A stretch of DNA of 64,000 bases from an uncultured Pirellula sp. GTDB lineage: Bacteria > Planctomycetota > Planctomycetia > Pirellulales > Pirellulaceae. The position numbers and the translations under genes were made by a program. The notes beneath the pieces are model-generated. The model was not told where the DNA came from. It was given only the letters and a program-made list of their open reading frames with translations, and did no database searches. Position 1 is the first letter of the stretch, and each line of letters begins with the position of its first letter. The stretch lies in the NCBI GenBank assembly GCA_903892355.1, contig CAITIE010000073.1, positions 1 through 64,000 of the forward strand. The letters run 5' to 3'. Positions 14,181 to 17,147 of this stretch are shown here, one piece after another.

Positions 14181-15026
14181 TCACCAATGCATGACATAAC
14201 CACCATCCACATTGATCGTTTGACCTGTCACTTGGGCAGCCCGATCCGATGAGAGAAAGACGATCATCGCAGCAACATCCTCGGACGTCTGCCATCGTTT
14301 CAAAGGAACTACAGAGTCGATTTTTGACTGTGCCCATTGTTCGTAGGAAATACGTTCTGCGTGGGGTACTGTTTCGCACCACGACTCCCAAACATTTCGG
14401 CTGAGATTGGTTTGTACCATTCCGGGGCATACCGTGTTCACTCGCACAGCGTAGGGTGCGAGGTCCTTGGCAAGGCACTGCGAAAAATTGATCGTAGCAG
14501 CCTTGCTCGCGCTATACGGGGGATCCGTCTGCGAGCCTATTTGTCCTGCGACCGAACCCACGAAAACCATGGTGCCTGTTTTCGCAGCCATCATTCTGGG
14601 CGCGATGGCGTGCGCCACATACACCATTCCCATCACATTGACATGCATTGGGAGAACCCAATCCTCGGGCTTGAGGTTGGTGAATGGGAATCCAAATCGC
14701 CGCGAACCGACTGCCGCGCAGTGCACCAAATGCTCCACGGCGTCCCAACGCTCATGCAATGATTTTCCAGCCTGTTGGACTTGTCGCTCGTCGGCGACAT
14801 CAACGGTTTCTCCCCGAATGTCTACCTTCCAACCTGTGTTCGCTGATTCGGTATTTGCTACTTGCGTGCCTGCGCGTAACCTTGCCGCAACCTCGAGCAC
14901 CTCTTCGTTCCGATCCCACAAAACAACATGGCAACCTTCGGCGATCAGCATTTTTGCAGTCGCTAAACCGATCCCTGATGCAGCACCGGTTACCAGGCAG
15001 CGTTTCCCCTTCAAACGAAGATCCAT
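14181..15026 (-). CDS. Short-chain dehydrogenase/reductase (SDR)
   Basis: The 281-residue product has the classical SDR cofactor motif TGAASGIG near residue 13, an active-site serine in FVGSVAGQ, and the YSASKAA catalytic Tyr-Lys motif, ending in the typical INVDGGYVMHW. The start at 15026 is chosen over an upstream ATG at 15071 because GGAGG lies eight bases before it and because SDRs start close to the Rossmann fold. An insertion of about 20 residues around TQVANTESANTGWKV is unusual for the family. It follows another SDR on the same strand after 105 bases; the pair may act in one pathway. Substrate unknown. Confidence 0.87.
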   Translation of the reverse strand: MDLRLKGKRCLVTGAASGIGLATAKMLIAEGCHVVLWDRNEEVLEVAARLRAGTQVANTESANTGWKVDIRGETVDVADERQVQQAGKSLHERWDAVEHLVHCAAVGSRRFGFPFTNLKPEDWVLPMHVNVMGMVYVAHAIAPRMMAAKTGTMVFVGSVAGQIGSQTDPPYSASKAATINFSQCLAKDLAPYAVRVNTVCPGMVQTNLSRNVWESWCETVPHAERISYEQWAQSKIDSVVPLKRWQTSEDVAAMIVFLSSDRAAQVTGQTINVDGGYVMHW

Positions 15027-15131
15027 GATCCAACCCTCCGATTCTTTCTCGAAATCCCAAACCATTTCCAAGGGTACTCTCGCAACGGAAAAGCATTCTC
15101 GAGGAATTGCGAGGGTTTCCGTTGCGATGAA

Positions 15132-15902
15132 TCAATGCGCAATGAATCCACCGTCCATCGACAGGATGGATCCGGTGAAGAATGTCGCGAAGTCGCTAGC
15201 GAGGTAAGTGTAGAAACAGGCTACCTCTTGCGCGGACGCGATCCTTCCGATTGGATGATTATCCCTCAACATTTTCAGGAACGCCTCGGGGTTACCCGAT
15301 TGCTCTGCAGACCACTGAACAATCGGAGTATCGACAGTGCCCAGAGCCACTGCATTCACTCGAATGCCATACGGTGCGTACTCGATGGCCATTTGCCGCG
15401 TCATTTGATGGAGAGCGCCCTTCGACGGTCCGTAGGCTCCTTGCTTGAGTATTCCAACGTGCCCAGAGATAGAACCTGTATTCAGAATCACGCCGGAGCG
15501 ACGCTGCATCATCATCGGCAATATCACTTTAGCCGACCAATACAGTGCCTTGACATTGGTATCCATGACATGGTCCCACTCGACTTCGGTATGTTCGTGA
15601 ATCGGTTTCACAACACTAACGCCAGCGTTGTTGACCAACACATCCACACCCCCGAATTTTCTGGCGGCGAGTTCGGCATATTTGTCGTGTGTCGATCGCT
15701 CTTTCACATCTCCGCGAAGAAATTGGACGCGATCCGGAGAGGATTCCAATAGATTTTTGAGAGAACCTGGCAGCTCGGGAGTGTAATCGACTGCGATCAA
15801 ATGCTCTATTCCAGACTCCACGAATTGGTGCACGGTTGCCAGTCCGACGCCGGAAGCCGCCCCCGTGACAACTGCGGTTTTGCCGCTCAATGAGATCTGC
15901 AT
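15132..15902 (-). CDS. Short-chain dehydrogenase/reductase (SDR)
   Basis: This 256-residue classical SDR has TGAASGVG near the N-terminus, the NNAG motif in LVNNAGVSV, a serine in NTGSISGHVG, YGPSKGA as the catalytic Tyr-Lys motif, and LSMDGGFIAH at the end. The start at 15902 has GAGGG about nine bases upstream. NAD(P)H-dependent oxidation or reduction of a hydroxyl/keto group is expected. It is the first of two SDR genes in tandem. The two products are clearly diverged, so this is not a recent duplication. Substrate unknown. Confidence 0.88.
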   Translation of the reverse strand: MQISLSGKTAVVTGAASGVGLATVHQFVESGIEHLIAVDYTPELPGSLKNLLESSPDRVQFLRGDVKERSTHDKYAELAARKFGGVDVLVNNAGVSVVKPIHEHTEVEWDHVMDTNVKALYWSAKVILPMMMQRRSGVILNTGSISGHVGILKQGAYGPSKGALHQMTRQMAIEYAPYGIRVNAVALGTVDTPIVQWSAEQSGNPEAFLKMLRDNHPIGRIASAQEVACFYTYLASDFATFFTGSILSMDGGFIAH

Positions 15903-15983: not shown

Positions 15984-17147
15984 TTATGCGTTCGAGGAAA
16001 CGGCATCAGGCAGTCGGATATCCGTCGTTCCTGGTCGCACCCAACGGGGATACTCGCGAGACGGATCGATGCATCCTCCATCGGCGTAGATACCTCTCGA
16101 GTCCTGCAGTCGATACATCTGTTCCATGATACGAGCCAATTCGTCAGGGTTTTGCTCCGTAGCCCGCATGTGCGATTGGACTTTGGCTTCGTCCATTCGC
16201 AAATCACCATCGTCACCACGGTACGTGGAGTGCCTCCAGTGGTACATCTCGAGGCACTTCAATTCGAGCGTAAAGGCTTTGTTCCTTTTCCAGAAATCGG
16301 TAAACAAGCCGCTCCCCAGATAGAATACCCATGAGCCTTCAAAGCCGAGTGCATCGGCGGAATCGGCATCTGGATTTCGGAACCAAACGCGATCACCGGG
16401 AACATAATACTTAGCCGGCAACGGGGATTGCCGAGAACCGTATTCCTTCATGAACACCTCGTGGAACTCACCTGAGCGAATCGCTCGCAGTTCGGCTTGT
16501 TGCTGCAGTTGCTCAAAAAGCGTTTGATTGCAACGACGGACTTCCTCTGCCAATCCGAGGGCGATGACATACTCTGTCGCCCGATAACAAGAAAACGAAT
16601 ACACCGTTCCGGCCTCGCCTGGTTGGGTTGCCAACCGAAGGGCGTCGATCACCGATTTACCCGCCCGGACCACAAAGCCTCGCGCTTCATCATATTCCCA
16701 ATGATCCTCGGGTCGCTCTGCACCATAGGCATCGAACGACAAGAACGTTTTGCTGGCTGCGTGAACGATGTTCTTGCGAACCATTACCGCCGATTCAAAT
16801 TCCTCAAGCGATGGAAACTCGAAAGTGATGGGGCTCGCCAGCATCGCGACCAAGATCTCACGCTCGAGCGGATCGCCCTTGGACAACGCCTCCTTTGAAA
16901 GCCTATCCGCTAATCCAACCGTATCCCACTCGGGAGTCCATTCGTTGAACCGTTCTTGGACCAACTCAAACTGCACCCAAGGTCGATTGTTCGTTGTTCC
17001 CAAATGGAGTTGGACTGACTGCGACAATTCACGTATCGACAACCATTCCAAAAAGCGGTCCACAACCAAATCTAACGAGCGCAGGTCTTGCCCCCAGATG
17101 GCAACACCCCCGCCCCGATTCGCGGAGCTTGAGGCCATGTAATTCAT
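15984..17147 (-). CDS. Protein-glutamine gamma-glutamyltransferase-like protein (Tgl fold)
   Basis: The 387-residue product resembles the small Bacillus spore-coat transglutaminase Tgl (about 245 residues) as I remember that sequence. Shared blocks are VRKNIVHAASKTF (123-135), VYSFSCYRATEY (182-193) and GDRVWFRNPDADS (251-263). Cys187 aligns with the catalytic Cys116 of Tgl through YSFSC against YAFEC. The glutamate just before that cysteine is Ser186 here, and the residue matching Glu187 of Tgl appears to be Ser272, so catalysis may differ. N- and C-terminal extensions flank the core. The start at 17147 is supported by AGGA upstream; a longer frame to 17288 adds an arginine-rich stretch that looks non-coding. 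No signal peptide. It is divergent from the PAC2 gene. Confidence 0.6.
   Translation of the reverse strand: MNYMASSSANRGGGVAIWGQDLRSLDLVVDRFLEWLSIRELSQSVQLHLGTTNNRPWVQFELVQERFNEWTPEWDTVGLADRLSKEALSKGDPLEREILVAMLASPITFEFPSLEEFESAVMVRKNIVHAASKTFLSFDAYGAERPEDHWEYDEARGFVVRAGKSVIDALRLATQPGEAGTVYSFSCYRATEYVIALGLAEEVRRCNQTLFEQLQQQAELRAIRSGEFHEVFMKEYGSRQSPLPAKYYVPGDRVWFRNPDADSADALGFEGSWVFYLGSGLFTDFWKRNKAFTLELKCLEMYHWRHSTYRGDDGDLRMDEAKVQSHMRATEQNPDELARIMEQMYRLQDSRGIYADGGCIDPSREYPRWVRPGTTDIRLPDAVSSNA

Follow-up and report, generated by a model that had tools for sequence, protein, structure and literature searches.

Our analysis has shown that an open reading frame on the reverse strand of the window, the whole 64,000-nucleotide stretch of planctomycete DNA that was analysed, is a real gene whose product carries the fold of Bacillus subtilis transglutaminase Tgl (the TGL fold; Table 1). 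The protein retains an invariant cysteine and has lost the partner residues of Tgl. Its subfamily spans Pirellula-group planctomycetes and betaproteobacteria and is no lone planctomycete oddity; the gene co-occurs with that of cyanophycin synthetase (CphA) and clusters with it in some lineages. Since the gene is nearly confined to makers of cyanophycin, a polymer for nitrogen storage, its product probably acts on cyanophycin and not on the cell envelope. The best reading is a cysteine-dependent hydrolase or transferase, predicted to act on cyanophycin. More tentatively, we propose a cytosolic enzyme of TGL/NlpC-P60 fold with a predicted Cys-dependent acyl-transfer activity that would serve cyanophycin metabolism. 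Such an enzyme would give a role in nitrogen storage to a fold that has been characterised from the cross-linking of spore coats.

Table 1. Features of the TGL-like gene and its neighbours in the window (A2, alignment of 61 rows; Bs, B. subtilis Tgl)
Feature	Position	Strand	Basis or remark
Gene encoding P0001, the TGL-fold protein (387 aa; start codon ATG at 17147)	15984..17147	-	ORF translation
Alpha/beta region at the N-terminus (residues 1-88), not covered by the Pfam TGL match	16884..17147	-	Pfam and model
TGL core, PF20085 match (residues 89-282, profile 17-198 of 245)	16302..16883	-	Pfam
Ser186 and Cys187 codons, aligned with Bs Glu115 and Bs Cys116	16587..16592	-	Each 61/61 rows in A2
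Codons of Glu270-Gly271-Ser272, Ser272 at Bs Glu187	16332..16340	-	Glu270 and Ser272 each 61/61 in A2
C-terminal part (residues 283-387)	15987..16301	-	Invariant His303-Trp304; C359, D361, R364 and E365 nearly invariant
Two short-chain-dehydrogenase-looking genes, downstream of the P0001 gene, 81-bp gap	14181..15902	-	By eye; same strand as P0001
PAC2-family gene (PF09754), upstream of and divergent from the P0001 gene	17410..18714	+	E 2.2e-36

The window protein matched the Pfam TGL family (PF20085) with an E-value of 2.7e-32 (112.4 bits; gathering cut-off 23.7), and no other Pfam family was found at E<=1. The sole NCBIfam match at that threshold was PRK03187, at 40.1 bits, which lies below its equivalog cut-off of 307. 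Among the sequences of solved Tgl enzymes, 7c9j was matched at E 4.4e-7 by the single sequence and at 2.6e-10 by the family profile; the corresponding values for B. subtilis Tgl (4p8i) were 0.48 and 2.2e-4. An AlphaFold model built with 60 relatives had a mean pLDDT of 89.4 and a pTM of 0.91, with residues 1-10 below a pLDDT of 50. For this model, Foldseek returned just 4p8i (3.3e-7) and 7c9j (1.5e-6) at E<=0.001, and VIA-align superposed it on 4p8i over 233 residues (Z 17.0, rmsd 3.6) and on 7c9j with Z 14.3. The next row was an amidase at Z 6.5; other amidases and the NlpC/P60 peptidases, which share the same catalytic core fold class, were weak matches at or below this value. VIA-align matches of the N-terminal region (homing endonucleases and designed proteins, Z about 4) were uninformative. 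The profile search and model superposition therefore bear out the Tgl fold that had been proposed from the letters alone in the sequence-only reading, and the protein is, as also stated there, longer than B. subtilis Tgl (387 against 245 residues). No export signal was evident by eye, and the start codon is also kept in a relative at 94% identity (L010).

Scanning 84,980 species genomes with a profile, by way of two short patterns, yielded 178 loci that encode relatives, of which the best 80 were kept; alignment A2 consists of the window protein and 60 of these 80. Both the search alignments and MAFFT placed B. subtilis Cys116, Glu115 and Glu187 at Cys187, Ser186 and Ser272, respectively. Each of these positions was the same in 61/61 rows, which upholds the earlier suggestions that Cys187 stands at the catalytic cysteine of Tgl and that serines replace both Tgl glutamates. 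The unvarying columns of A2 were F138, R145, S184, S186, C187, Y188, R189, E192, F228, W255, E270, S272, W273, H303 and W304. A more distant protein outside A2 (L003) differs at positions 188 (W) and 273 (F) and retains C187, S186, E270 and S272, and the cysteine was also kept in all eight clade-2 proteins (see below) compared by MAFFT. Further differences from B. subtilis Tgl are Trp255 for Tyr171 and Trp273 for Asn188. As for His200, there is no histidine in the F-x-[DN]-[FL]-W stretch of the subfamily, the exact partner column being alignment-dependent; this stretch stands opposite Y-Y-G-H of a canonical-looking Tgl (L002). The place of the catalytic histidine of NlpC/P60 enzymes presumably corresponds to Ser272.

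According to PMC6490927, the E115A and H200A mutants of B. subtilis Tgl are inactive and E187A has about 60% activity. A clade that lacks the residues Tgl needs, yet has its own set fixed, suggests an altered enzyme more than a decaying one. Glu270, two residues ahead of Ser272, is kept in clades 1 and 2 and may be a candidate for the missing carboxylate. This is a guess from the alignment, since a toxin-like protein (L008) has Glu at that place besides the normal Glu. An active site that lacks both Tgl glutamates and the Tgl histidine and is nevertheless invariant would reveal a new way to run the TGL fold.

The nearest named relatives of the window protein are Pirellula-group planctomycetes. 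Among the best 80 of the 178 loci, 14 were in Pirellula-type planctomycete MAGs (two being pieces in one genome) and two in MAGs named Schlesneria. The other 64 were nearly all betaproteobacterial or plain proteobacterial by title, with 48-59% identity; one titled Selenomonadales (L100) encodes a protein identical to that of a Propionivibrio locus (L098). With most of these 80 relatives in betaproteobacteria, the view of the protein as a planctomycete peculiarity is not supported. Of 241 genomes from the window's family (Pirellulaceae), 14 carry clade 1, all within the window's genus (14/27), a count that leaves out two genomes with cytochrome-like ORFs by eye (G562, G572) and one with an RHS-like ORF (G481). 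PF20085 matches of any kind were present in 8/392 sampled genomes of the window's phylum, some of them toxin-end-like by eye. Tgl is known from spore coats, and planctomycetes do not sporulate; the family as a whole thus reaches beyond spore formers.

In the phylum of Polaromonas CF318 the subfamily was found in 4/398 genomes (G624, G672 and G685 are also among the 200 described next). Among 200 genomes from this strain's order, which we take to be Burkholderiales, clade 1 was present in 17, clade 2 in eight and both in two, giving 23 carriers. Clade 2 (L116-L123), the sister of clade 1, comprises secreted-looking proteins, mostly of about 420-450 aa, from eight genomes of this order, all eight CphA-positive. 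Their N-termini are hydrophobic and export-signal-like in most of the eight by eye, and their motifs are Y-[SAN]-[IF]-G-C-Y-T and G-Y-E-G-S. The gene of one of them (L123) is broken between two reading frames. The eight clade-2 regions had no common neighbour: apart from the gene, just a few ORFs recurred in pairs of loci. In a phylogenetic tree, 46 betaproteobacterial rows clustered (91/60), with planctomycete rows around them when clade 2 was the root. This tree would fit a transfer of the betaproteobacterial gene from planctomycetes, a direction on which we do not rely because the root branch is very long. The TGL-like gene was also considered as a mobile gene, and this was rejected: 72,556 plasmid and 50,697 phage records gave no match at E<=1e-5.

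CphA scored over its cut-off in 72 of the 200 order genomes. It was present in 22 of the 23 carriers of clade 1 or 2, as against 50/177 other genomes (Fisher's test, p 2.7e-10; the test ignores descent, to which the count on the CphA tree below is a partial answer). Adding the non-carriers with large CphA matches below the cut-off (G640, G659, G765, G803) gave 22/23 against 54/177 (p 1.1e-9). By clade, CphA was found in 16/17 clade-1 genomes and in 6/6 with clade 2 only. The single exception, G783, is a genome whose TGL gene is divided between two contigs. A CphA call required the curated cut-off, or a large partial match named as such; near-E-value matches to TIGR02068 occurred in all genomes, controls included, and were not taken as CphA. 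With just four candidates scored in each genome, CphA could have escaped notice in some carriers and non-carriers alike, and one distant clade-1 carrier (G373) was left out of the tests. Among 50 carriers from the best 80 loci, which overlap the 200-genome sample by three (G709, G751, G825), 44 were over the CphA cut-off, four had split or partial CphA (G830, G842, G855, G858) and two had none (G837, G859).

A FastTree phylogeny was made of 60 CphA proteins (21 carriers and 39 non-carriers) from 60 of the 72 CphA-positive genomes, the carrier G751 being left out. On this tree the carrier label required 14 changes, 13 of them forced by starred branches. Shuffled labels required about 17.5 on average, and 21-22 of 500 shuffles were as low as observed. 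The label is therefore just slightly clustered and does not represent a single inherited block: the TGL-like gene was gained or lost many times, nearly always inside CphA-bearing genomes. It is also dispensable, since 50 of the 72 CphA-positive genomes lack it. In the window's genus a strong CphA match was present in 27/27 genomes (24 over the cut-off), and the 14 clade-1 carriers have CphA whole or in pieces. The window's family had CphA over the cut-off in 33/241 genomes, 24 of them in this genus. Since the family's carriers all fall in one genus, shared descent could account for the link there. The genome of the window encodes a complete CphA, primer-site motif included, on another contig (C38) and has a shorter CphA-like gene on contig C59; no second TGL gene and no acyltransferase were found in these two regions.

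Physical linkage to CphA was seen in 8/80 loci within the fetched flanks of at most 8 kb (L055, L067, L075, L083, L086, L087, L090, L092). In L055 the genes CphA', CphA and TGL follow one another in that order on the same strand, the last with a 4-bp overlap, and in L090 the order is CphA'-CphA-acyltransferase-TGL, likewise on a single strand. L067, L083, L087 and L092 have DUF1854 and ABC genes between CphA and the TGL-like gene. The neighbours in L086 are, by NCBIfam, CphA, CphA', the CphA-associated ABC transporter (NF052233) and the CphA-associated DUF1854 protein (NF052234). The names of these last two families reflect their place beside CphA; their genes occur at most of 60 CphA loci with or without the TGL-like gene, whereas the TGL-like gene is less common and, for the most part, lies at other places in the genome. 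It was found in none of the CphA regions of 21 carriers from the 200-genome sample and in none of six planctomycete regions that surround CphA or CphA-like genes. In G751, the 22nd CphA-positive carrier, it lies side by side with CphA. Many of the 80 loci had no visible common neighbour.

In the 60 CphA regions (L134-L193), the primer-site motif Cx19HxxEH was present in 55/55 CphA' proteins, the shorter partner, and in 0/61 other CphA ORFs. Within CphA/CphA' pairs the motif is thus confined to the shorter partner, so that the two synthetases have divided tasks. Passages of PMC9262961 describe Cx19HxxEH as an endo-cyanophycinase motif. A role of the TGL-like protein as primer maker for CphA was considered and is not needed, as CphA' has the motif in 20/20 carrier and 35/35 non-carrier loci and the CphA of the window's genome already has its own.

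A membrane acyltransferase gene directly adjoins the TGL-like gene in 23/80 loci, one of them cut by a contig end, and lies 1.1 kb away in one more (L080); this count leaves out L052, with a weak match 5.4 kb away. The gene was of the Acyl_transf_3 type in the six members scanned and was found on either side of the TGL-like gene, in planctomycetes and betaproteobacteria alike. None of this type was found within the window. The same type also stands beside CphA in two loci without a TGL-like gene (L186, L189). With its links to both the TGL-like gene and CphA (L029-L032, L042-L045, L090, L186, L189), the Acyl_transf_3-type gene is possibly an unrecognised cyanophycin accessory gene.

The amide bonds attacked by TGL and NlpC/P60 enzymes belong to Glu and Gln and are of the side-chain or isopeptide type. 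In cyanophycin, each Asp side chain bears an Arg, as described in PMC10206079. Since this Asp-Arg bond resembles the bonds that the two groups attack, a TGL-fold enzyme that acts there through Cys187 would account most simply for the fold, the cysteine and the genome context together. We infer the substrate, the bond, the catalytic base and the direction of the reaction as follows. Cys187, which lies where a helix begins, would attack an amide carbonyl of cyanophycin, either at the beta-aspartyl-arginine isopeptide bond or in the backbone. The resulting thioester would then be released to water, if the enzyme is a hydrolase, or to an amine, if it is a transferase. The invariant Ser186 and Ser272 would stand in for Glu115 and Glu187 of Tgl, with Glu270 as the putative carboxylate.

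It is very unlikely that the protein is a true protein-crosslinking transglutaminase of the planctomycete envelope, similar to Bacillus Tgl. Family, fold and cysteine are those of Tgl, but the equivalents of Glu115, Glu187 and His200 are absent, and the first and last of these are residues without which Tgl is inactive (E115A, H200A; passages of PMC6490927). Moreover, the gene tracks CphA and not the planctomycetes, and the window protein lacks an evident export signal. The envelope cross-linker offered by the sequence-only reading is thus disfavoured, and its other option, that the Tgl fold would serve another activity, gains support. The earlier observation was confirmed and its interpretation partly supported. 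The loss of the catalytic partners and of His200 would also fit a non-catalytic protein that binds cyanophycin or belongs to its granule, built on a dead TGL fold, and RipD is a known non-catalytic NlpC/P60 protein (title of entry 4jxb). We regard this as unlikely, however, since Cys187 and its neighbours Ser184, Ser186, Tyr188, Arg189 and Glu192 are each kept in 61/61 rows, and the cysteine in the eight clade-2 proteins as well. The link to CphA might also reflect shared ecology or lineage only, with another substrate, perhaps handled together with the neighbouring membrane acyltransferase. That acyltransferase is a commoner neighbour (23/80 loci and one at 1.1 kb) than CphA, and many loci have no common neighbour. 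Nevertheless, the 13 or more changes that the CphA tree demands and the CphA clustering in several lineages make this explanation quite improbable, and the acyltransferase type itself occurs beside CphA in L090 and in the carrier-free L186 and L189.

Cyanophycin breakdown in betaproteobacteria nearly devoid of recognisable cyanophycinase is an open question, part of which our results touch. Passages of Sharon and Schmeing (PMC10206079) report a recognisable cyanophycinase in 2.8% of 903 betaproteobacterial genomes with CphA1 and propose unknown isozymes. Cyanophycinase CphB (TIGR02069) resembles the window protein in the proposed substrate only, with no sequence match to it at E<=1. In our sample, TIGR02069 scored over its cut-off in 10/72 CphA-positive genomes and was lacking in 20/22 TGL-like carriers and 42/50 non-carriers; the gene does not track the absence of cyanophycinase. 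The planctomycete carriers G476, G490 and G491 have a cyanophycinase over the cut-off, and the match in the window's genome falls just below it (123.0 against 126.6 bits). The proposed isozymes and the 20 carriers with CphA and no TIGR02069 match over the cut-off speak for the TGL-like protein being the missing cyanophycinase of betaproteobacteria in general. Because 42/62 such genomes lack the gene as well, we rejected this as a general claim and hold it highly improbable; the gene would be one of several solutions at most. It could, nevertheless, fill the degradation gap in the 20/62 genomes that have it. It is conceivable, if doubtful, that the TGL fold has given rise to a new, structurally unrelated Cys-dependent class of cyanophycin-cleaving or -modifying enzymes. 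In this class the carboxylate would have shifted by two residues (from the Glu187 place to Glu270), cytosolic and secreted-looking clades would exist, and a degradation step would be provided in about one third (20/62) of the CphA-bearing genomes of the order without known cyanophycinase. No link between the TGL fold and cyanophycin was found in the full-text literature, which is weak evidence as most subscription papers lie outside its coverage, and a paper that names PF20085 mentions the family just as protein cross-linking.

Other PF20085 proteins were seen in the window's phylum. In two planctomycetotal genomes (L004, L023), TGL or TGL-like domains end RHS-looking proteins, and in a third (L008) such a C-terminal domain lies behind an eCIS-looking N-terminus; by eye, all three are likely ends of polymorphic toxins. 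This appearance is less clear in L005. The Glu187 equivalent is present in L004, L005 and L008. A paper that mentions transglutaminase and planctomycetes concerns polymorphic toxins. L002, the canonical-looking Tgl mentioned above, contains YAFEC and GEN together with a His in the His200 stretch, and its Tgl part is preceded by what by eye is a peptidoglycan-binding-like region. Finally, in one Pirellula subgroup (L033, L034, L036, L038, L039, L041) the TGL-like gene lies directly 3' of a recA-looking gene (by eye) on the same strand.
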